36,151 nt of DNA from Candidatus Aquitaenariimonas noxiae (GTDB taxonomy: Bacteria > Omnitrophota > Gorgyraeia > Aquitaenariimonadales > Aquitaenariimonadaceae): assembly GCA_002780005.1 (NCBI GenBank), contig PEWV01000053.1:1-36151 (forward strand), read 5' to 3'. The notes beneath the pieces are model-generated. The model was given only the letters and a program-made list of their open reading frames with translations, was not told the DNA's origin and did no database searches. The position numbers were made by a program, and so were the translations under genes. Below, piece by piece: positions 11,239 through 21,124 of the stretch; position 1 is the first letter of the stretch; every line of letters starts with the position of its first letter.

Positions 11239-11300
11239 AGCTTGGCAGTATAAAGAAGCTCACCTAATCATAAAAGGATAAAGGATGAGCTTATTTTTTT
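11239..11300 (+). promoter_or_regulatory. Attenuator-like leader hairpins before the hydrogenase operon
   Basis: A stem AAGCTCA (11256-11262) / TGAGCTT (11286-11292) can extend inward by CCT/AGG across one bulged A. It is followed by A and seven T, the form of an intrinsic terminator, and ends 6 bases before the first hydrogenase start codon. An alternative 5-bp stem AGCTT (11239-11243) / AAGCT (11256-11260) uses the same left arm and would exclude it. The two mutually exclusive structures look like an attenuator. No known riboswitch class is recognised. The rest of the 182-base gap shows only AT-rich sequence and no convincing promoter. Confidence 0.45.
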
Positions 11301-11302
11301 AG
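11285..11302 (+). CDS. Possible five-codon leader mini-ORF (MSLFF)
   Basis: ATG-AGC-TTA-TTT-TTT-TAG begins 6 bases after AAAAGGA, the best ribosome-binding site in this gap, and ends 4 bases before the next ATG, which itself lacks a well-spaced site. Ribosomes on it would melt the right arm of the leader hairpin and could reinitiate on the hydrogenase gene. It is very short, so chance is a real alternative. Confidence 0.25.
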   Translation: MSLFF

Positions 11303-11306
11303 AAAA

Positions 11307-12746
11307 ATGAAAAATGAAACATTACTTTTATTAACTGTTTCGGTTCCGGTTGTCGGGGCGTTTATTGTTCCGATTGTAGGACGCGTTTCGGAAAAGCTTA
11401 GGAATTTACTGGCACTGGCTTTCGTTTCGACGTCTTTTATTTGTTCTTTGTGCCTGATTCCTTCCGCCTTGTCCGGCAAAGTTACAAGTATCGCCATTGC
11501 CTTTCCGCTAGGGTTTAATTTTGTCCTCACAGCAGATTGCTTGGCGGTATTTATGGCGGCCGTATCTTCTTTTATAAGCTCAGTAATCGTATTGTATTCT
11601 TTTGACTACATTAGCCATTATCCGAACAGGGATGAATACTATCTGATGGTAGTATTGTTTCTTGGTTCTATGATGGGTTTGGTATTTTCAGGGAACCTGA
11701 TTTTTTTATATATTTTCTGGGAACTGACAGCCATTGTCAGCTGGCGCCTGATAGGCTTTTTTAGAGAAAAGCACCATGTTCTGATGGCGGATAAAGCGTT
11801 TCTTGTTACTGTATTCGGAGCGCTTGCGATGCTTGTAGGATTTTTATTTATATATCAAAAAACTGGCTCCTTCGACCTTTTAGTGATCAAAGAGAATTTT
11901 AAGGGAGTTCCGGTTCCGGATATCGCCGTGCTGCTTATATTGGTAGGCATCCTTTCAAAGTCAGCGACCCTGCCTTTTCATACGTGGTTACCCGATGCCG
12001 GTATTGCTCCTTCGCCTGTTACAGCGCTGCTTCACGCCGCTGTTCTTGTCAAAATCGGCGTATACGTTTTTGCCAGGCTCTTTATTTCAACATTTTCGCT
12101 CGATGCCGCCTGGCATGTCTTAATCCCAATAATAGCAGCAACGAGCGCCCTTGTCTCGGCAGGAGCCGCTCTTGTAGAAACTGACATGAAGAGGGTTATA
12201 GCGTATTCGACAGTTAGTCAAATAGCCTTTATATTTCTTGGTTTTTCCGTTAACGCGGAAATAGGCATAGTCGGCAGTTTGCTATATATACTGATGCATG
12301 GCCTGGCAAAAGGCGGATTGTTTCTTTGCGCCGGCATAGTTGAACAAAACACAAAAGAACGGGATATAACGAAAATGGGCGGTCTTATTGCTACGATGCC
12401 TCTTACAGCGGTGTCATTTTTGGCATGTGTTTTTTCTGTTATGGGCGTTCCGCCCTTCGGAGGTTTCTTTAGTAAATATATGGTATTTTCAGGCGCAGTT
12501 ACGAGCGGCCAAGTAGGAATTGCTGTGACGTTCTTGTTTGGCGCGGTCTTGACAATACTTTATCTTTTACGTTTGTTTAATCATATTTTCTTGGGAGAGT
12601 CGCACGGTAAAATAGCGAAGGAAGAGTCGGTCCTAATGGTGAGTTCAGTTATGATATTTGCATTAGTTTCGCTCGCGTGCGGCATTTATATTAAATATCC
12701 TTTCTTATTTGCTCAATTTGCGACCAAACAAATGCTGGGGATGTAA
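11307..12746 (+). CDS. Hydrogenase antiporter-like membrane subunit 1 (NuoL/M/N family)
   Basis: Polytopic inner-membrane protein of the proton- or sodium-translocating family shared by complex I, Mrp antiporters and group 4 hydrogenases. About 14 hydrophobic segments are visible over 479 residues. The coupling residues are all in place: Glu139 in IFWELTA, Lys218 in ILSKSATLPFHTWLPDA, and His243/Lys249 in LLHAAVLVKIG. It is the first gene of the hydrogenase operon, and the only in-frame start is the ATG used, because a TGA lies 21 bases upstream. It has no C-terminal lateral-helix extension. The next gene begins 2 bases after its stop. Confidence 0.9.
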   Translation: MKNETLLLLTVSVPVVGAFIVPIVGRVSEKLRNLLALAFVSTSFICSLCLIPSALSGKVTSIAIAFPLGFNFVLTADCLAVFMAAVSSFISSVIVLYSFDYISHYPNRDEYYLMVVLFLGSMMGLVFSGNLIFLYIFWELTAIVSWRLIGFFREKHHVLMADKAFLVTVFGALAMLVGFLFIYQKTGSFDLLVIKENFKGVPVPDIAVLLILVGILSKSATLPFHTWLPDAGIAPSPVTALLHAAVLVKIGVYVFARLFISTFSLDAAWHVLIPIIAATSALVSAGAALVETDMKRVIAYSTVSQIAFIFLGFSVNAEIGIVGSLLYILMHGLAKGGLFLCAGIVEQNTKERDITKMGGLIATMPLTAVSFLACVFSVMGVPPFGGFFSKYMVFSGAVTSGQVGIAVTFLFGAVLTILYLLRLFNHIFLGESHGKIAKEESVLMVSSVMIFALVSLACGIYIKYPFLFAQFATKQMLGM

Positions 12747-12748
12747 AT

Positions 12749-14596
12749 ATGCTGACTAATGTCTTATTATTGCCCATTACCGTACCGACAGCCGCTGCGT
12801 TGTTGATCTTGATGTTGCCGAAAAAGTTTCGTGCCGCAATCGATGCGATATCTTTATTCGGTTCATTTTTAATCCTATTGCTCTCTATACTTTTATTCAA
12901 GCGAAACCTTAGTTATTCCATGCCCGCCCTGGGCTTCGGTATAGAATTTTCACTGCGATTGTATCATTTTAGCGGTTTCATAGTTTTAGCAGCGGCCTTC
13001 TTTGTATTTTTAATAACTTTATATTCCAATGCCTTTTTACGCGAAAAAAGTTATTCGAAACAGTTCTATGTGTATTTATTATTATCCCTGGCCTTTATCA
13101 ATGGCGCAGTGCTGTCTGACAATCTTGTCTCGATGCTCTTTTTCTGGGAAGGTATGCTTATTACTTTATTCGGAATGATATATATCGGAGGTAAGAGGTC
13201 ATTTAAAACTGCAACGAAAGCTTTTATAATAGCCGGGGTAGGTGATCTTTGCCTTATGCTGGGTGTGGCAATCTGTTTTTATATTTCAGGGACTCTGGCT
13301 ATTTCCAAACTTCATATCCCGATAAGCGGTATCGGAGGCGCAGCGTTCATATTGTTAATGATGGGTGCTATCGCGAAGGCCGGCTCTATGCCGTTTCACA
13401 CCTGGATCCCCGATGCCGCTATTGACGCGCCCTTGCCTTTCATGGCGATAGTGCCGGCTTCCTTTGAAAAACTCCTGGGTATATATTTTCTATCGCGCAT
13501 CTCGCTTGATATTTTTGAAATGAGCCCCGATTCTTGGGCAAGCATGACGCTGATGATAATAGGCTCAATAACGATCGTATTTGCGGTTTCTATGGCATTG
13601 ATCCAAAAAAACTACAAGCGATTATTGTCCTATCACGCCATTAGCCAGGTGGGATACATGATATTAGGCATAGGAACCCTGGTTCCGGCCGGTATAGTTG
13701 GCGGTTTATTCCATATGATAAACAACGTTATGTATAAAAGCTGCCTGTTTCTTACGGGCGGTGCAGTCGAGAAACAAGCCGGAACGACCGATCTAGAAAA
13801 ATTAGGTGGGTTAAAAAAATATATGCCGGTTACTTTTATATGCTATGTGATAACGGCCGCCTCAATATCCGGAGTGCCGCCCTTTAACGGCTTTTTTTCT
13901 AAAGAATTGGTGTGCGAGGGGGCCTTGGAGCGCGGTTTTATATTTTATCTTGCAGCCATCATAGGTGCATTTCTTACGGCGGCTTCATTTCTGAAGCTGG
14001 GCCATGCCGCTTTTTTAGACAAATCGAAGAACGGAAAGCTTCCGATTAAAGAGGCACCTATACGGATGCTGATCCCGATGATCGCGATAGCAGCCTTATG
14101 CGTGCTTTTCGGAGTGTGGAATAGCTTGCCGCTCAAACTGTTTATACAGCCTATTTTAGGGCAGGAAAGGCTTGGGGGCCGCGATTTTTCGGGGATGCCG
14201 CATAATTCCTTGCTAGTGGTCATTACAATAATGGTTTTGCTTGGTGCTCTTTTAAATCACCGGTATGGGGTAAAGAAGCACGGCAGTGGCTTAAAGGCAG
14301 CAGAGCATATACATCATGCACCGGTTTTATCCTATATTTTTAATAAAGCAGAGAACGGATATTTTGATCCGTATAATATCGGTCTAAATATTTCATATGG
14401 ATTTTCTAAGGTAGCGTTTCTTTTTGATAGGGCCATTGATTGGGTATACAATGTTTTTATAATAAAAGTGTCGAAAGTTTTTACTGCTGCTGCGCGAAGC
14501 TTGAACGACGGCAGTTATAAATCATACATAATTTGGTCTCTTTTAGCTACCGGCGCAGTTGTTATATTTTTAATTAAATCAATGATAGGAGCCTAA
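12749..14596 (+). CDS. Hydrogenase antiporter-like membrane subunit 2 (NuoL-like, with C-terminal extension)
   Basis: The longest antiporter-like subunit, 615 residues. Glu134 (FFWEGML) and Lys210 (AIAKAGSMPFHTWIPDA) of the ion channel are kept. Where relatives carry LLHAA.LVK, this protein reads IVPASFEKLLG (234-244), so the usual His is lost and a Glu240-Lys241 pair appears. After the last core helices, a polar stretch with ENGYFDPYNIG and an amphipathic segment leads to a final membrane helix. This resembles the lateral helix by which NuoL clamps the complex I membrane arm. That suggests a distal or clamping position in the complex, by analogy only. Confidence 0.88.
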   Translation: MLTNVLLLPITVPTAAALLILMLPKKFRAAIDAISLFGSFLILLLSILLFKRNLSYSMPALGFGIEFSLRLYHFSGFIVLAAAFFVFLITLYSNAFLREKSYSKQFYVYLLLSLAFINGAVLSDNLVSMLFFWEGMLITLFGMIYIGGKRSFKTATKAFIIAGVGDLCLMLGVAICFYISGTLAISKLHIPISGIGGAAFILLMMGAIAKAGSMPFHTWIPDAAIDAPLPFMAIVPASFEKLLGIYFLSRISLDIFEMSPDSWASMTLMIIGSITIVFAVSMALIQKNYKRLLSYHAISQVGYMILGIGTLVPAGIVGGLFHMINNVMYKSCLFLTGGAVEKQAGTTDLEKLGGLKKYMPVTFICYVITAASISGVPPFNGFFSKELVCEGALERGFIFYLAAIIGAFLTAASFLKLGHAAFLDKSKNGKLPIKEAPIRMLIPMIAIAALCVLFGVWNSLPLKLFIQPILGQERLGGRDFSGMPHNSLLVVITIMVLLGALLNHRYGVKKHGSGLKAAEHIHHAPVLSYIFNKAENGYFDPYNIGLNISYGFSKVAFLFDRAIDWVYNVFIIKVSKVFTAAARSLNDGSYKSYIIWSLLATGAVVIFLIKSMIGA

Positions 14597-14599
14597 AAC

Positions 14600-16042
14600 G
14601 TGCCGTCTTTACTAGTCCTTATACCACTTTTCGGCATAATACTTTTGAATTTACCGTTCAGAAGATTAAACGAAAAATACGTTTTTTGGTTTGCCGTGTT
14701 TCTTCTTTCAGTGCAAATATTGTTTACAATTTCGCATCACTCGCTATTTTGGCAGCAGGGGATGGGGTATATCGATTCGTTTTTCAAAGTAGATTTCGCT
14801 ATAGATAGCCTTAGCTTCATAATGCTGCTATGTATAGCCATTGTTTCCATGGTAAGCCTCTCCGTTTCCCGATATACCATTCCGGACCCAAGAGAAAGAT
14901 TTAAATTTATAAATCTTTTAATGATCGCGGCAATTGGTATGAATGGCATAGTGATTACAAAAGATCTATTCTCATTGTATGTTTTTCTTGAAATAACAGC
15001 GTTGTCATCGGTAGTGCTTATAGCTTTTCAAAAAGACATGAATGCGCTGGAAGGGGCCTTTAAATACCTGATACTTTCTTCTATTGCCACTATTATGATG
15101 CTTTTTTCTATAGCCCTGATATTGCTTGTCTCTCCCGGGACATCTTTTGCGGTCATAGCGGCAGCGCTTAAAGAGTCGCCCAATAGCGCCGTAATTATTT
15201 TCGCAATGGGTATTTTTATATGCGGCCTTTTTATAAAAGGCGGATTAGTTCCTTTTCACGGATGGCTTCCAGATGCGTATACGGCTGCGCCGTCAGCCGT
15301 ATCTATATTATTGGCTGGTATTGTAACAAAGGTATGCGGCATCTATACAGCTATCAGAGTTATCGCATTCGTATTCGGTTTTAACGAAGTTATTAAAAGC
15401 TTGTTTATGTTTATAGGCCTTTTTTCAATATTGATAGGGGCATTGGCCGCGCTCGGCCAGAAAGATCTTAAAAGGCTACTTGCATATTCAAGTATTAGCC
15501 AGGTCGGATATATAATATTGGGCTTCGGGACAGGTACAGCCCTTGGCATGGCCGGAGCCGTATTCCATATTTTTAACCACGCTGTTTTCAAGTCGCTCTT
15601 ATTTGTGAATGCCGCAGCCGTAGAGAAAAGAATAGGCTCAAGCGATCTGGATAGGATGGGCGGCTTGTCATACAGGATGCCCATCACGGGTTCAACCTCG
15701 GTTATCGGCGTGCTTTCGACTTGTGGTATACCCCCGCTTGCGGGGTTTTGGAGCAAGCTCGTGATAATCATAGCGCTATGGCAATCCGGTCATTATATGT
15801 ACGGAACCATTGCGGTATTGGCCAGCATTCTTACACTGGCGTATCTATTGTTGATGCAGAGAAAAGCGTTTTTCGGGAAATTGCCGAAAGAATTGGAGAA
15901 TCTAAAGGATTTAAAGGAGGTCGGTCCGGAATTCACGTTGCCGTCTATAATTTTGGCGATGATAACCATTAGTGTAGGTGTGTTTTTCCCTTTTGTGTTC
16001 GATAAATTCGTAGTACCGATTAAAAGTATCTTTATGCAATAA
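14600..16042 (+). CDS. Hydrogenase antiporter-like membrane subunit 3 (NuoN/M-like)
   Basis: Third paralogous ion-channel subunit, 480 residues with about 14 hydrophobic segments. Glu131 (FLEITAL), Lys213 (FIKGGLVPFHGWLPDAY) and Lys244 (GIVTKVCGIY) line the predicted half-channels. The mix of features is closest to NuoN and MrpD-like proteins. Three such subunits give a membrane arm of complex I size rather than the single antiporter subunit of Ech-type hydrogenases. The GTG start follows AGGAG at good spacing, and the next gene begins 6 bases downstream. Confidence 0.89.
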   Translation: MPSLLVLIPLFGIILLNLPFRRLNEKYVFWFAVFLLSVQILFTISHHSLFWQQGMGYIDSFFKVDFAIDSLSFIMLLCIAIVSMVSLSVSRYTIPDPRERFKFINLLMIAAIGMNGIVITKDLFSLYVFLEITALSSVVLIAFQKDMNALEGAFKYLILSSIATIMMLFSIALILLVSPGTSFAVIAAALKESPNSAVIIFAMGIFICGLFIKGGLVPFHGWLPDAYTAAPSAVSILLAGIVTKVCGIYTAIRVIAFVFGFNEVIKSLFMFIGLFSILIGALAALGQKDLKRLLAYSSISQVGYIILGFGTGTALGMAGAVFHIFNHAVFKSLLFVNAAAVEKRIGSSDLDRMGGLSYRMPITGSTSVIGVLSTCGIPPLAGFWSKLVIIIALWQSGHYMYGTIAVLASILTLAYLLLMQRKAFFGKLPKELENLKDLKEVGPEFTLPSIILAMITISVGVFFPFVFDKFVVPIKSIFMQ

Positions 16043-16048
16043 GAGGCT

Positions 16049-16540
16049 ATGATGACAATAAATATAATTCTTTTAATTGCCATGACCATTGCCACGCTTT
16101 GGACTGTAATGGGGAGAAGCCTGTTGAAAGCGACATTGGGACTCGCCGTAACCAGTGTTGTTATTTCAGTGCTTATGTTCAGGCTAGACTCGCCGATGGC
16201 TGCTGTTTTTGAATTATCGGTTTGTGCGGGGCTGATAACTATTATATTTGTCAGTGCGATAAGCCTCGTGAAGCCCCTGACACATAAGGAAGCGATAGTT
16301 GTCTCGAAAGATCGGATGAAACGATTCCGATATCTGCCCTTGCTGGTTATTTTGTTCGGAGTGATCGCCGGATTTTTTGGGATACCGAACGATTTTAAGC
16401 CGATTTATGTTGCGCTTGCAAATGACGTGCGTACCGTATTGTGGAGCTTGCGGCAATTCGACATGTTCGGGCAGATAGTAATAATTATAGCAGGCGCTCT
16501 TGGGGTTGTGGTACTTTTCAGGGAAAAGGAGAAAAGATGA
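16049..16540 (+). CDS. NuoJ-like hydrogenase membrane subunit
   Basis: Protein of 163 residues with about five hydrophobic helices: three in the first 75 residues, one near 90-110 and one at the C-terminus. The third helix region, with FELSVCAGLITIIFVSAISL, resembles the helix of NuoJ that contacts NuoK and is implicated in coupling in complex I. The link to NuoJ rests on size, helix order and position before a NuoK-like gene, and sequence identity is likely low. It overlaps the next gene by ATGA. Confidence 0.78.
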   Translation: MMTINIILLIAMTIATLWTVMGRSLLKATLGLAVTSVVISVLMFRLDSPMAAVFELSVCAGLITIIFVSAISLVKPLTHKEAIVVSKDRMKRFRYLPLLVILFGVIAGFFGIPNDFKPIYVALANDVRTVLWSLRQFDMFGQIVIIIAGALGVVVLFREKEKR

Positions 16541-16857
16541 GCCCTGACACATGGCATATCCTTTCGGTGTTTGTTGCTTTTGTTGCGGTACTTTTCGTAT
16601 GCGGCATTTACAGTATACTTGTAACGCGGAATCTTCTTCGGACCGTAATAGGCATAGAGATCCTGATAAAAGGCGTTACGCTGCTTTTAATAGTAGTTGG
16701 CTATATTACTAATCAGACAGGGTTAACGCAAAGCCTTGTTATAACTATTATAGTTATCGAAGTTGTTGTTATGGTTATAGCGGGTGGTATCGCGCTTAGC
16801 ATGTTCAGGAATATAGATTCAATAGATACAAGAAACTTGACTAAATTGAAGGGGTAA
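16537..16857 (+). CDS. NuoK-like hydrogenase membrane subunit (MrpC/HyfE type)
   Basis: Small three-helix membrane protein of 106 residues. Two buried glutamates known to be essential in NuoK are present: Glu41 (VIGIEILIKG) and Glu75 (IVIEVVVMVIAGG). The frame stays open 96 bases upstream, but the ATG at 16537 has GGAGA just before it and gives the family's normal length. It overlaps the previous stop as ATGA, so translation is coupled. It should form the proton-transfer link between the NuoJ-like and antiporter-like subunits. Confidence 0.87.
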   Translation: MSPDTWHILSVFVAFVAVLFVCGIYSILVTRNLLRTVIGIEILIKGVTLLLIVVGYITNQTGLTQSLVITIIVIEVVVMVIAGGIALSMFRNIDSIDTRNLTKLKG

Positions 16858-16864
16858 TTGGTAT

Positions 16865-17197
16865 ATGGGTAAAATATTGCTTACTCCGGTGGTTGCATTT
16901 ACAGTGATTTATATAACAATGACACTGTTTTCGAATTTGATGGCCAGGCTTTCGTTTAAAAAAGGAAAACGGGCAGAGGGCACGGAAAAAGCGTACGCAT
17001 GCGGCGAAGACACGCAAACTAATTTAGTACAGCCGGACTATAGCCAGTTTTTTCCGTTTGCGTTCTTTTTCAGCATATTGCACGTTGTCGCATTAATGAT
17101 AGCGACTGTGCCTATTAAGACCATGGGCTCGGTCTACATAGCGCTTGTTTACATATTAGGCGCGATGGTCGCCCTGTCAATTTTATTCCGGAGGTAG
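16865..17197 (+). CDS. NuoA-like hydrogenase membrane subunit
   Basis: Protein of 110 residues with three hydrophobic helices (about 5-27, 60-80 and 88-107). The loop between the first two contains YACGED with Cys46, equivalent to the YECG loop of NuoA that reaches towards the quinone site in complex I. Acidic and aromatic residues after it (QPDYSQFFPFAFFFSILHV) match NuoA spacing. A NuoA counterpart is absent from the classic Hyc, Hyf and Ech hydrogenases, so its presence makes this complex more complex-I-like. Confidence 0.8.
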   Translation: MGKILLTPVVAFTVIYITMTLFSNLMARLSFKKGKRAEGTEKAYACGEDTQTNLVQPDYSQFFPFAFFFSILHVVALMIATVPIKTMGSVYIALVYILGAMVALSILFRR

Positions 17198-17202
17198 CGT
17201 TT

Positions 17203-17649
17203 ATGGGGTTGATTCACAAGGTTGTTAATTGGGCAAGAATAAAGTCTCCGTGGATATTGCATTTTAATACAGGCGCCTGCAACGCCTGCGATATCGAGAT
17301 TATTGCCGCCTTAACTCCGCGTTATGACATGGAGCGTTTCGGTGTGCTTTTGAAGGGGACGCCGAGGCACGCTGATGTGCTTGTCTGCTCCGGTCCTGTC
17401 ACAAAACAGGTAAAGTGCAGACTGCAAAGGATCTACGAACAAATGCCTGAACCAAAGTTTGTAGTTGCGGTTGGGAGCTGTTCTTGTTCGGGAGGGGTTT
17501 TTCAAGGGTGCTACAATGTCGAATCAGGTATAGATAAGGTTATACCTGTGTCTGTCTATATACCGGGATGCCCAGCGAGCCCGACAGCAATAATCCACGG
17601 CGTGACAAAATTGCTGAAGAGTTTAGAGGAAAAAAAAGGAAATGACTAA
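17203..17649 (+). CDS. [NiFe] hydrogenase small subunit (NuoB/HycG-like)
   Basis: Carries the proximal [4Fe-4S] cluster that feeds electrons to the NiFe site. Four cysteines fit the ligand pattern: Cys26 and Cys29 in TGACNACDIE, Cys93 in GSCSCSGGVF, and Cys123 in PGCPASP. The first pair is CxxC as in hydrogenases (CNGCDIE in HycG), not the adjacent Cys-Cys of NuoB. This supports a hydrogenase rather than complex I. Length is 148. Its end overlaps the next gene by 8 bases. Confidence 0.93.
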   Translation: MGLIHKVVNWARIKSPWILHFNTGACNACDIEIIAALTPRYDMERFGVLLKGTPRHADVLVCSGPVTKQVKCRLQRIYEQMPEPKFVVAVGSCSCSGGVFQGCYNVESGIDKVIPVSVYIPGCPASPTAIIHGVTKLLKSLEEKKGND

Positions 17650-18112
17650 AGAAGAAGATGTCCAGAATGAACTGGTGAAAAAATTTGATTTTCTTAAAGA
17701 TAAAGTAAAAATACAGCGCTCGCGCAGGATATTTGCCGATGTCGCGGCCCAGGATTTGCGATCCGTTCTCGATCATATGATAAAAAACATGGGATTTTCT
17801 TTTCTTTGCACGATAACCGGCCTTGACGAAGGTAGTGTTTTTGGCGTTGTATATCATTTAAGCACAAAGGACGGAATGATCCTGAACCTGAAAATACGCA
17901 TTCCAAAGGATAAACCGACTCTCGAGACAATAACTGAGTATTTTCCTAGCGCCGAGGCGTACGAGCGAGAACTAATGGATTTATTTGGAATGCAGGTCGA
18001 AGGTCTTCCTAAGGGGTCTCGATACCCGCTGCCGGATGATTGGCCCGCAGGAGAATTCCCGCTCAGGAAGGGCTGGAAGTCTAAAACTTCAAAGCAAGAA
18101 GGGGGAATTTAA
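17642..18112 (+). CDS. NuoC-like hydrogenase subunit
   Basis: Soluble protein of 156 residues corresponding to the 30-kDa complex I subunit, which in E. coli HycE/HyfG is fused to the large subunit. The signature ERELMDLFGM is followed by RYPLPDDWP and the end motif FPLRKGW. It braces the large subunit in the peripheral arm. Here it is a separate gene, as in many group 4 enzymes outside the formate hydrogenlyases. It overlaps the small-subunit gene by 8 bases and lies 1 base before the large subunit. Confidence 0.9.
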   Translation: MTKEEDVQNELVKKFDFLKDKVKIQRSRRIFADVAAQDLRSVLDHMIKNMGFSFLCTITGLDEGSVFGVVYHLSTKDGMILNLKIRIPKDKPTLETITEYFPSAEAYERELMDLFGMQVEGLPKGSRYPLPDDWPAGEFPLRKGWKSKTSKQEGGI

Positions 18113-18113
18113 T

Positions 18114-19337
18114 ATGCACAAATTCACTGTACCCATAGGTCCTCAACACCCAGCCTTAAAAGAGCCCGAGAGTTTTAACGTGCTCTTGAGCGGCGAGAGA
18201 ATAATGAAATTCAGCGCGCGGCTCGGATATAATCACCGTGGAATAGAAAAGGCGTGTGAAGAAAGAACGTACATACAAAATGTTTATTTAACCGAGCGCG
18301 TATGCGGGATTTGTTCTCATGCGCATTCGTCTTGTTTTGTGCAGGCCGTAGAAGAGATAGCGGGGCTGGAGATCCCTAGGAGGGCGAACTATATACGCAC
18401 GCTTGTGGGTGAGTTAGAAAGGATACACAGTCATCTTCTTTGGCTCGGGGTTGCCGGCCATGAAGTCGGATTTGACACTTTGCTCATGTATGCGTGGCGC
18501 GACCGTGAGATAGTCATGGATATCCTGGCTAAACTTACAGGGAACAGGGTGAATTACGGCATTAACACTATCGGAGGCGTAAGACGCGATATTAATACTG
18601 ACCAGATAAAAGATGTGAGTAAAGCTGTAAAAAAGCTTAAAGAAAGAACAGAATACTATGTGCGGGTCGCAAAAGAAGAAGTAACCCTTATTAAACGGCT
18701 ATCGGGCGTCGGGGTGTTACTACCTAAAGACGTTCTTAAATTAGGGGCGGTCGGACCTACAGCGCGCGCTTCAGGCATTGAACGCGATACCAGAAAAGAC
18801 GATCCTTATGGGGCTTATGGTGAATTAGATTTTAGGGTTATCACGGACGATCATAATGATGTATACGGACGAACATTAGTGCGTCTTGGCGAGTTATTGG
18901 AATCTTATAAAATGATATCGCAAATTTTAGAAAATATTCCGGAGGGCCCTATTACTGTTAAGGCGCCTCGCAAGATACCCGCAGGCGAAGCTGTGAGCCG
19001 CTATGAAGCGCCTCGGGGTGAAAATGTTCATTATGTTAAATCTAACGGCACGGATAAACCTGAGAGGGTAAAGATACGCGCCCCAACCCTTGCCAACATA
19101 CAGACAGTAGCCAAAATGCTGGAAGATAGAAATTTGGCGGACTTGCCTATCGTCATCGCGGCGATAGACCCATGCTTCTCTTGCACCGACAGATTGACAT
19201 TGGTAAAGGACGTCGGGCATGGAAAAGGGAGAAAAATGCGATGGGAAGACCTGCATTCGCACAGCATTCAGTGGTATAAAGCGCGCGGGATCGATTTTTC
19301 CGATCTCAATAAAAAAATGGAAAAATTGTTAAAATGA
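18114..19337 (+). CDS. [NiFe] hydrogenase large subunit, group 4 (NuoD/EchE-like)
   Basis: Catalytic subunit for 2H+ + 2e- to H2. Both NiFe-binding motifs are intact: ERVCGICSHAH (Cys64, Cys67) and DPCFSCTDR (Cys354, Cys357). It is therefore not one of the cysteine-less relatives such as NuoD. A 47-residue tail follows Arg360, matching the C-terminal extension that HycI-type proteases remove after nickel insertion. The frame is open 129 bases further upstream, but the ATG used follows a GGGGGA ribosome-binding site and begins MHKFTVPIGPQHPAL, the normal family N-terminus. Length is 407. The ATG of the next gene overlaps its stop. Confidence 0.95.
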   Translation: MHKFTVPIGPQHPALKEPESFNVLLSGERIMKFSARLGYNHRGIEKACEERTYIQNVYLTERVCGICSHAHSSCFVQAVEEIAGLEIPRRANYIRTLVGELERIHSHLLWLGVAGHEVGFDTLLMYAWRDREIVMDILAKLTGNRVNYGINTIGGVRRDINTDQIKDVSKAVKKLKERTEYYVRVAKEEVTLIKRLSGVGVLLPKDVLKLGAVGPTARASGIERDTRKDDPYGAYGELDFRVITDDHNDVYGRTLVRLGELLESYKMISQILENIPEGPITVKAPRKIPAGEAVSRYEAPRGENVHYVKSNGTDKPERVKIRAPTLANIQTVAKMLEDRNLADLPIVIAAIDPCFSCTDRLTLVKDVGHGKGRKMRWEDLHSHSIQWYKARGIDFSDLNKKMEKLLK

Positions 19338-20275
19338 TAGGATCGCTATTAAGCATTTTCATATTTCCCGGTTTTCTTTTTTTGATGGTATTCGGCTTAT
19401 CAGCCGAATTTATCGACCGAAAACTCTACGCTCGATTGCAGAACAGGGTCGGCCCTCCGTGGTTCCAACCGGTCGCTGACCTGATCAAGCTTTTTAGCAA
19501 GGAAGATATTATACCGGAAGAAGCCAACCCAGCGATGTTTAAGGCTATGCCTATATTAGCCCTTACAGCTACCATTACATCGTTTTTTTATATTCCTACA
19601 TGGAGAAATGAAGCGCTGTATCACTTTAACGGCGACCTTATTATCGTGCTTTATCTTTTGACTCTTCCCACGCTTTCATATTTCCTGGGTGGGTGGTACT
19701 CTACTTCACTTTTTTCAAAAATAGGAGCGGTACGCACGCTGACGCAATTATTCGCTTATGAAGTCCCGCTATTAATGAGCATTTTGGCTCCGGCCCTTTT
19801 GGCCGATACGTGGTCGCTGACAGAGATGGCTGTCTTTTATAGCGCGCATCCATGGTATTGGTTATTTAATATTTTGGGTTTCTTCGTAGCATTAATAACG
19901 CTTCTGGGGAAACTTGAGAAGGTCCCGTTTGACATACCCGAAGCGGAAACAGAAATAGTCGCAGGCACGTTTACAGAATATAGCGGGAGGCTCTTGGGGC
20001 TGTTTAGGTTAAGCATGGATATAGAACTTATTGTAGGCGCTTCGCTTCTGGCCGCGGTGTATATGCCTTTCGGGCTGGCAATTTCTCCGATATTTGCCTT
20101 CATTTTATTTTTAATAAAAGTTCTCTCTATTGTTGCGATGGTATCTGTTTTACGTACAGTATTCGCGCGGCTACGAATAGACCAGATGGTAAATTTCTGC
20201 TGGCGATACCTCGCGCCATTCTCATTTTTGCAAATTCTGATAATTCTAGCACTGAAAGGATTTCTCGTAAGATGA
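19334..20275 (+). CDS. NuoH-like hydrogenase membrane anchor subunit (EchB/HyfC type)
   Basis: Membrane protein of 313 residues with about eight helices that docks the peripheral arm on the membrane. Conserved cytoplasmic loops are present: RKLYARLQNRVGPPWFQP followed by KLFSKEDI near the N-terminus, and the acidic loop FDIPEAETEIVAGTFTEYSG near residues 197-216, whose glutamates start the ion path in complex I. It overlaps both neighbours by 4 bases. The sequence is complete and looks functional. Confidence 0.93.
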   Translation: MIGSLLSIFIFPGFLFLMVFGLSAEFIDRKLYARLQNRVGPPWFQPVADLIKLFSKEDIIPEEANPAMFKAMPILALTATITSFFYIPTWRNEALYHFNGDLIIVLYLLTLPTLSYFLGGWYSTSLFSKIGAVRTLTQLFAYEVPLLMSILAPALLADTWSLTEMAVFYSAHPWYWLFNILGFFVALITLLGKLEKVPFDIPEAETEIVAGTFTEYSGRLLGLFRLSMDIELIVGASLLAAVYMPFGLAISPIFAFILFLIKVLSIVAMVSVLRTVFARLRIDQMVNFCWRYLAPFSFLQILIILALKGFLVR

Positions 20276-20649
20276 TAAGACCGGCTAAGATGATCAGGCA
20301 AGTCCTCTCGTCCCTTTTTAAAAAACCGGCTACAAACCTCTATCCGTTCAATAAATTCGAAATGCCGGATAAATTCAGGGGAAAAATAGTGTTCGATCCC
20401 GAACTTTGCGTCGGCTGTAAACTTTGCATGAAGGATTGTCCGGCCGGGGCCATCAATATTAAGAAGGTAGGCGAGAAGAAATTCGAAGCCGAATTTGACC
20501 TTGGCAAATGCGTTTATTGCGCGCAGTGCACGGAAACCTGTTTTAAAAAAGCTTTAAAATTTACAGGCGAATTTGAACTTGCCTCATTAGACAGGGAAAA
20601 ATTGAAAATAACTTTTAATGCCAAACCTGACGACACTGCTTCAAAATAG
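20272..20649 (+). CDS. NuoI/HycF-like 2x[4Fe-4S] ferredoxin subunit
   Basis: Electron-transfer subunit of 125 residues. Two CxxCxxCxxxC motifs are complete: Cys46/49/52/56 (CVGCKLCMKDCP) and Cys80/83/86/90 (CVYCAQCTETCF, where Phe replaces the usual Pro). It should pass electrons from soluble ferredoxin to the small subunit. No NADH-binding (NuoE/F/G) genes accompany it, which argues for ferredoxin as the redox partner. Its last 32 bases overlap the protease gene in another frame. Confidence 0.92.
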   Translation: MIRPAKMIRQVLSSLFKKPATNLYPFNKFEMPDKFRGKIVFDPELCVGCKLCMKDCPAGAINIKKVGEKKFEAEFDLGKCVYCAQCTETCFKKALKFTGEFELASLDREKLKITFNAKPDDTASK

Positions 20650-21124
20650 GCTAGAGAATGCTAAAAAAATAGCGGTCCTGGCAATAGGTTCGGAACTGAG
20701 AGGGGACGATTACGCAGGTATAGCCGTAGCCAAGGCCCTTGAAAAAAAGCTTAAAAAAAAGCGAACCAGACCTCAAATAAAAACGTTTATCGGATCTACG
20801 GCGCCTGAGAATCTTACCGGTGAAGTAAAGAAATTTAAACCGTCTCATTTATTAATAATAGACGCCGCCGAGACCGGAGAAAAATCCGGAACTGTTATTT
20901 TATTAAAACCCGAAGACATAAATGAACTTGCGATGTTTTCTACGCATAAGATCCCGATTAATGTTCTAGTCAGATATTTAAGCGGATCCTTGAAGTGCAA
21001 AACAATTATTATAGGGATCCAGCCGGCATCGATCAAATTTGGTAAAACTTCTTCAAGGGTTGTGATGAAATCTGCAGAAGGAGTAGCTCAAGCAATATAT
21101 CTTGCAAGCGCTGGTATTAAATAA
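20618..21124 (+). CDS. HycI-type [NiFe] hydrogenase maturation endopeptidase
   Basis: Cuts the C-terminal tail of the large subunit after nickel is loaded. The motif IGSELRGDDYAG and the three expected nickel-sensing ligands are present: Asp31, Asp82 (IIDAAE) and His110 (FSTHKIP, like TTHNMP in HycI). GSTAPEN and IIIGIQP also match HycI closely. Length of 168 includes a short N-terminal addition. The ATG lies 32 bases inside the ferredoxin gene with no obvious ribosome-binding site, but no later ATG gives the full domain. No hyp genes for NiFe cofactor assembly are in the window. Confidence 0.9.
   Translation: MPNLTTLLQNRLENAKKIAVLAIGSELRGDDYAGIAVAKALEKKLKKKRTRPQIKTFIGSTAPENLTGEVKKFKPSHLLIIDAAETGEKSGTVILLKPEDINELAMFSTHKIPINVLVRYLSGSLKCKTIIIGIQPASIKFGKTSSRVVMKSAEGVAQAIYLASAGIK

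Follow-up and report, generated by a model that had tools for sequence, protein, structure and literature searches.

The window, a 36,151-nucleotide contig of Candidatus Aquitaenariimonas noxiae (phylum Omnitrophota; contig C26 of the genome that we label G000), harbors a group 4 [NiFe]-hydrogenase operon behind a GH57 gene. The large subunit of the hydrogenase retains both cysteine motifs, CGIC and CFSC. The leader of the operon contains a hairpin located 131 nt past the GH57 stop codon and 14 nt ahead of the hydrogenase start. The features of the locus are as follows.

11239..11243, forward strand: AGCTT, upstream strand of a possible competing helix, with five Watson-Crick pairs to 11256-11260 across a 12-nt loop; not above chance
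11256..11265, forward strand: left arm of the terminator hairpin (AAGCTCACCT), from folding; the arms covary in 18 leaders
11266..11281, forward strand: apical part of the hairpin, including a ribosome-site-like AAAAGG, from sequence and folding
11282..11292, forward strand: right arm of the terminator hairpin (AGG, one bulged A, TGAGCTT), from folding
11294..11300, forward strand: T7 tract of the terminator, from sequence; relatives have T tracts at the same place
11285..11302, forward strand: mini-ORF MSLFF, from sequence; not conserved in a comparison of hairpin leaders
11307..12746, forward strand: HyfB-type antiporter-like subunit of 479 aa, the first gene of the operon (Pfam Proton_antipo_M, 2.3e-71)
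12749..21124, forward strand: the remaining hydrogenase operon, with antiporter-like and small membrane subunits, NuoB/C/D-like and NuoH-like subunits, a ferredoxin and a HycI-type protease

In the predicted fold, AAGCTCA (11256-11262) pairs with TGAGCTT (11286-11292) to give a hairpin of -12.6 kcal/mol, and CCT (11263-11265) extends the stem by pairing with AGG (11282-11284), one bulged A lying between the two helices. The right arm is followed by a single A and then by T7 (11294-11300), which ends 6 nt 5′ of the ATG at 11307. The hairpin, the T7 tract, the upstream AGCTT and MSLFF all lie where the original prediction had placed them. Only one of 200 dinucleotide shuffles folded as stably as a chosen 47-nt segment (z -3.6), and with all 74 nt the number was 35 of 200; the window sequence alone is consequently weak evidence for the hairpin. 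The AGCTT/AAGCT helix, proposed earlier as one half of a mutually exclusive structure, is at chance level in the window leader (p = 0.51, in a test that leaves loop size free). Upstream of the hairpin the best promoter match is 8 of 12 positions, with none above, and a 9-of-12 promoter-like site beginning at 11242 would start transcription inside the hairpin. No Rfam family reached its gathering score in the window, and nothing relevant appeared up to an E value of 5 for six sources. A direct DNA search for the window leader in relatives returned only a 28-base match, within coding sequence.

Conservation of the leader terminator

Homologues of the first gene were drawn from 384 genomes of the class and from a genome collection. 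Of 61 prepared entries, which never included L056, 55 were counted, the distant homologues L055 and L069-L073 being set aside. In 27 of these 55 homologues (3.7 in shuffled sequences) a single hairpin with a folding energy of -9 kcal/mol or lower and a T tract lies no farther than 150 nt from the start codon, and in 20 (2.3 in shuffled sequences) no farther than 60 nt; the largest of 20 shuffled sets reached 9 and 6, respectively. Ordinary tandem genes, taken from the hydrogenase and hppA loci only, gave 7 of 37 within 150 nt and 2 of 37 within 60 nt, in a control whose gene classes were set by simple sequence patterns, some hppA genes falling among "hyfB" and some among "other". The loci surrounding antar genes are full of further terminators of the same kind, and for this reason are unfit as a control.

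The hairpins fall into the sequence families F1 (GTCTTCTGG..), F2 (GCCCACCTG.., which includes the window), F3 (CCAGAG..) and F4 (TTCACTC..). Across 18 F1 and F2 leaders base pairs switch type while pairing is kept. When the F1 family is combined with the hppA leaders and a single leader of the sigma-like type, 99.4% of cells are paired and three of 11 pairs have changed on both sides. Because the MAFFT alignment of F2 hairpins was out of register, each sequence was folded separately and the pairs of its fold were counted with the left arm as the common anchor. The upstream genes and their distances vary among relatives while the hairpin remains with the operon, and in G256, where hppA comes first, it stands ahead of hppA. 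A sigma-70-type promoter matching at least 10 of 12 positions lies upstream of the hairpin, usually 20–40 nt before it, in 17 of 30 leaders (1.15 in shuffled sequences), a set scanned over a slightly longer stretch than the 27 hairpin leaders. Many of these operons are thus probably transcribed through the terminator before the first codon is reached.

Sequence comparison identifies the terminator as genuine, and it is the homologues rather than the single sequence that decide this. Leader terminators predicted at this position are common for the operon in Omnitrophota. The loss of the stem in close relatives, which would have spoken against the original prediction, did not occur, the terminator hairpin being kept. 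Of the controls that it had proposed, transcription attenuation gains support from the hairpin position, the covarying arms and the promoters upstream in relatives.

Individual leaders depart from the general layout. The hydrogenase leader of G035 (L065) has a strong conserved hairpin followed by CCCCTTAAGC in place of a U tract, and is for that reason unlikely to be an ordinary intrinsic terminator. In three F4 leaders (L020, L026 and L034) the hairpin starts 6 nt past the -10 box, where transcription itself probably begins, as against 20–40 nt in most others.

A probable hexaloop antiterminator in related leaders

In the F1 family the sequence of the right arm recurs 5′ of the left arm (AAGAC..GAAGAC), and this second copy is able to base-pair with the left arm so as to enclose a loop of exactly six bases. 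This hexaloop helix onto the left arm is present in six of ten F1 hydrogenase leaders, where 0.2 would be expected and none of 5000 shuffles did as well, and in eight of 13 F1 leaders when those of hppA are included; the leaders in this test had not been selected by the covariance model R1 described below. A scan of loop sizes from 3 to 16 peaks at 6 alone, all other sizes reaching at most 2. The part of the earlier proposal concerning mutually exclusive structures, at chance level in the window, thus has an exact hexaloop version in related hydrogenase leaders.

A loop of six occurs in 12 of 20 energy-gene leaders and in 29 of 32 nitrogen-gene leaders, counts that at R1-found sites are partly selected, since many R1 source leaders contain AAGAC. 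G at loop position 4 (G4) is found in 11 of 12 energy-gene and in all 29 nitrogen-gene hexaloops, and A at position 1 (A1) in five of 12 and 26 of 29. The upstream hexaloop P1 of ANTAR targets is mostly absent from F1 hydrogenase leaders, and none of six further energy-gene leaders has a P1 with both A1 and G4. Nitrogen-type leaders carry an upstream A1/G4 P1 in 18 of 31 cases (for example UAC-AGCGUU-GUA), as read from a table produced by a script that favoured A1/G4 loops and required stems of at least three pairs. The nitrogen-gene leaders found with R1 thus show the dual A1/G4 hexaloops before a terminator that characterize ANTAR targets, and six of ten F1 hydrogenase leaders show the P2 hexaloop. 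From its sequence, the F1 hexaloop overlapping the left arm of the terminator is identified as the P2 half of an ANTAR antiterminator, and the hydrogenase of the F1 relatives is likely to be an ANTAR target.

The helix is not universal. Three F1 leaders (L017, L065 and L083) keep the terminator arms and lack the hexaloop; in L003, L004, L005 and most F2–F4 leaders the terminator is kept and the hexaloop is unrecognisable, alternative helices having varied loop sizes.

At 26 of 32 nitrogen-type sites (for example L179, L178, L180 and L161) a second hexaloop-like hairpin follows the first terminator. It lies just past the first U tract and is typically GGAC-UAAGGC-GUCC with G4, though not all have the GGAC form, and its placement suggests tandem antiterminators.

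The window leader has the terminator, and a promoter match of at most 8 of 12 upstream, and differs in its hexaloops. At the left arm it has no P2 hexaloop, only the alternative with a 12-nt loop, and upstream it has no A1/G4 P1, only CUAU-auauua-GUAG, which lacks G4. Model R1 misses it at E values up to 1 and in the genome search. It is accordingly not classed as an ANTAR-target RNA, and because its hexaloop is unrecognisable, ANTAR control of the window copy is inferred from orthology.

Genes downstream of R1 sites

The covariance model R1, built from F1 leaders, gave 60 matches representing 57 sites in 48 of the 384 genomes, three matches duplicating a hairpin on its opposite strand. The genes that follow the sites were named with Pfam for representatives and otherwise by eye from sequence likeness. 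Hydrogenase (nine sites), hppA (four) and a short sigma-like protein (one) account for 14 sites. The genes after the other 43 encode the short sigma-like protein (17), NAD synthetase (eight), the ammonium transporter Amt (four), ATP synthase subunits (three), GltB (two), H+-pyrophosphatase (two), an exchanger (one) and a permease (one), with five sites unclear or at a contig end. The NAD synthetase carries an amidase-type domain. The one representative of the short sigma-like protein examined has no Pfam match; in G235 its gene is followed by amt. At 15 of the 57 sites an antar gene in the same orientation ends no more than about 200 nt upstream.

F1/R1 sites precede hppA in five genomes. As a general target, H+-pyrophosphatase was rejected: none of the 20 hppA loci examined out of 28, that of the window's genome included, has such a leader. 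In G300 an F1-type leader (L177) nearly identical to the hydrogenase leader of its congeners precedes a fusion of a Na+/H+ exchanger with PTS EIIA.

ANTAR proteins in Omnitrophota and in the window's genome

The genome of the window encodes one ANTAR protein, composed of GAF and ANTAR domains and similar to EutV, Rv1626 and NasR. It retains the RNA-contact residues of EutV when the comparison is anchored on Met172, the Met of the SM motif, an anchor that was our choice. Its gene precedes a glutamate-synthase-like gene, amt and a PII-like gene, the first and last of these named by eye. The amt leader has a promoter (TTGACA-17-TATAAT), a hexaloop with A1 and G4 (UGAC-AGUGAU-GUUA) and tandem terminators, one of which is overlapped by the hexaloop AGAAC-GAAGAC-GUUCU, a helix read by eye. 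At about 78915-80109 of contig C14 (L245, L100), amt is split over two overlapping frames, through either a frameshift or an assembly error.

An ANTAR protein was found in all 31 hydrogenase genomes tested (of 45 listed), that of the window included, and in 45 of the 48 genomes with R1 hits, the other three having no ANTAR match. Among 40 genomes in which this hydrogenase subunit has no close homologue, 27 also encode an ANTAR protein, which makes the co-occurrence of ANTAR and hydrogenase a loose one. R1 hits occur in none of 13 ANTAR-less genomes and in 20 of 58 others (two-sided p 0.014, with relatedness ignored).

Some genomes have two GAF-ANTAR genes (L110, L117, L118 and L101-L104). In one class of GAF-ANTAR proteins the residue corresponding to EutV Glu160 is replaced, and ALTTRK..ILSQEAN stands in place of the usual ANTAR core. 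In G257 the same ANTAR match occurs on nine contigs; either the gene is multiplied or the assembly is redundant.

Proposed mechanism and comparison with known systems

The conserved terminator, the hexaloops of the relatives, the adjacency of antar genes and the GAF-ANTAR protein of the window's genome are the observations from which the following mechanism is built. The hairpin and T7 would act together as an intrinsic terminator within the leader transcript of the hydrogenase operon and, by default, would halt RNA polymerase immediately ahead of the first start codon. Nascent transcripts of the best preserved subfamily could fold differently, into a short hexaloop hairpin that consumes the left arm of the terminator. 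A GAF-ANTAR protein, once its GAF sensor domain is switched on by a signal, would bind and hold this hexaloop, and polymerase would pass, as with EutV, NasR and AmiR. The degenerate copy in the window would, on this view, remain a target. We judge the case for and against leader-terminator attenuation of the hydrogenase operon with relief by GAF-ANTAR to be evenly balanced, the window copy being included by inference.

As in the known ANTAR systems (EutV/eut, NasR/nas and AmiR/ami), a predicted intrinsic terminator precedes the gene, a hexaloop can be formed on its left arm in relatives, the loop has G4 (and A1 in nitrogen-gene leaders), an ANTAR protein is encoded nearby or in the genome, and nitrogen genes are among the targets. 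Unlike EutV, the regulator here has a GAF domain in place of a receiver domain. Unlike the dual-hexaloop targets, the hydrogenase leaders show one hexaloop only, P1 being absent, and the window leader has none that can be recognised; the putative targets also extend to a group 4 hydrogenase, H+-pyrophosphatase and ATP synthase, which sets them apart from those of known systems.

A protein-stabilised hairpin overlapping a leader terminator is also the basis of BglG/LicT-type antitermination, where it is the RAT hairpin, but the fixed loop size of six is more in keeping with ANTAR. Leader-peptide attenuators have a short ORF near the leader terminator, whereas MSLFF sits inside the terminator and is not conserved.

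The hexaloop, A1 and G4 are the loop features of ANTAR antiterminators in the portions consulted of PMC3369931, PMC8934654 and PMC8164766. According to the same portion of PMC3369931, EutV targets require both P1 and A1, which counts against hydrogenase leaders that lack P1 and often A1; in the portion consulted of PMC8934654, the minimal binding motif is redefined as a single hexaloop. Two papers were found on ANTAR, hydrogenase and terminators, neither of which, judged by title and abstract opening, concerns this control, and a search for "ANTAR domain" with Omnitrophota found no paper.

Alternative explanations

We conclude with good confidence that the window element works like a leader attenuator. 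It could instead be passive, a terminator of the GH57 gene or a 5′ hairpin stabilising the mRNA, with no switch involved, as might be suggested by the lack of a strong promoter upstream of the window hairpin and by the terminators that tandem genes can carry (seven of 37 within 150 nt). We consider this improbable, given a hairpin far from the GH57 stop yet close to the hydrogenase start, which tracks the operon while upstream genes vary, stands ahead of hppA in G256, and has promoters upstream of it in many relatives. A more serious alternative, though still an unlikely one, accepts that the terminator attenuates the operon and holds that the window's lineage uses a different release, its ANTAR hexaloop having been lost or replaced; candidates are a ligand, an RNA-binding protein of another kind, or a polymerase speed that determines readthrough. 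The many leaders that keep the terminator with an unrecognisable hexaloop (L003, L004, L005 and most of F2–F4) are what it would lead one to expect, but the window's genome has a GAF-ANTAR protein and an ANTAR-like amt leader, and both arms of the window hairpin can be aligned with their counterparts in relatives that do have the hexaloop.

The remaining alternatives concern MSLFF (ATG AGC TTA TTT TTT TAG, 11285-11302), which has AAAAGG just 5′ as its ribosome site. The original prediction also raised translational coupling, in which ribosomes would start at MSLFF and reinitiate at 11307; the ribosome site is good and well spaced, the stop codon lies 4 nt 5′ of the ATG, and 11307 has no Shine-Dalgarno (SD) sequence of its own. 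However, the mini-ORF is not conserved: an SD-led mini-ORF starting in the hairpin is found in only four of the 27 hairpin leaders, and only that of the window ends beside the hydrogenase start. As the first gene has no SD in 22 of the 27, weak initiation right past the U tract is the rule and requires no mini-ORF. Coupling is unsupported by this comparison and very improbable, and MSLFF is probably a local accident. Hardly credible is the reading that the first gene really begins with MSLFF, its frame broken at T7 by slippage or by a mistake in the assembly. The ATG at 11285 would be in frame with one base fewer, and the same assembly has amt split over two frames, but the homologues start at about residue 1 of the ORF as it stands, and many of them have a stop codon in the same frame a short way upstream.

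Implications

The same module precedes genes for the ammonium transporter, glutamate synthase and NAD synthetase, and under GAF-ANTAR control the hydrogenase would therefore join them in one antitermination regulon, which in some species H+-pyrophosphatase and ATP synthase would share with the nitrogen assimilation genes. In its widest form, which we put forward tentatively and at somewhat less than even chances, one GAF-ANTAR antiterminator would, across Omnitrophota, join nitrogen assimilation (amt, gltB and NAD synthetase) with the ion-pumping complexes of energy metabolism (group 4 hydrogenase, H+-pyrophosphatase, ATP synthase and a Na+/H+ exchanger). The energy genes would be served by a minimal attenuator of about 60 nt with one hexaloop, and the window's clade would have a diverged version of it. 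The proposal can be checked in vitro, without culturing the organism. If true, it would provide a regulon for GAF-ANTAR proteins, a group of which, as PMC3369931 stated in 2012, specific examples had yet to be characterised, and an energy-conserving group 4 hydrogenase would be controlled at transcription termination and tied to nitrogen status.
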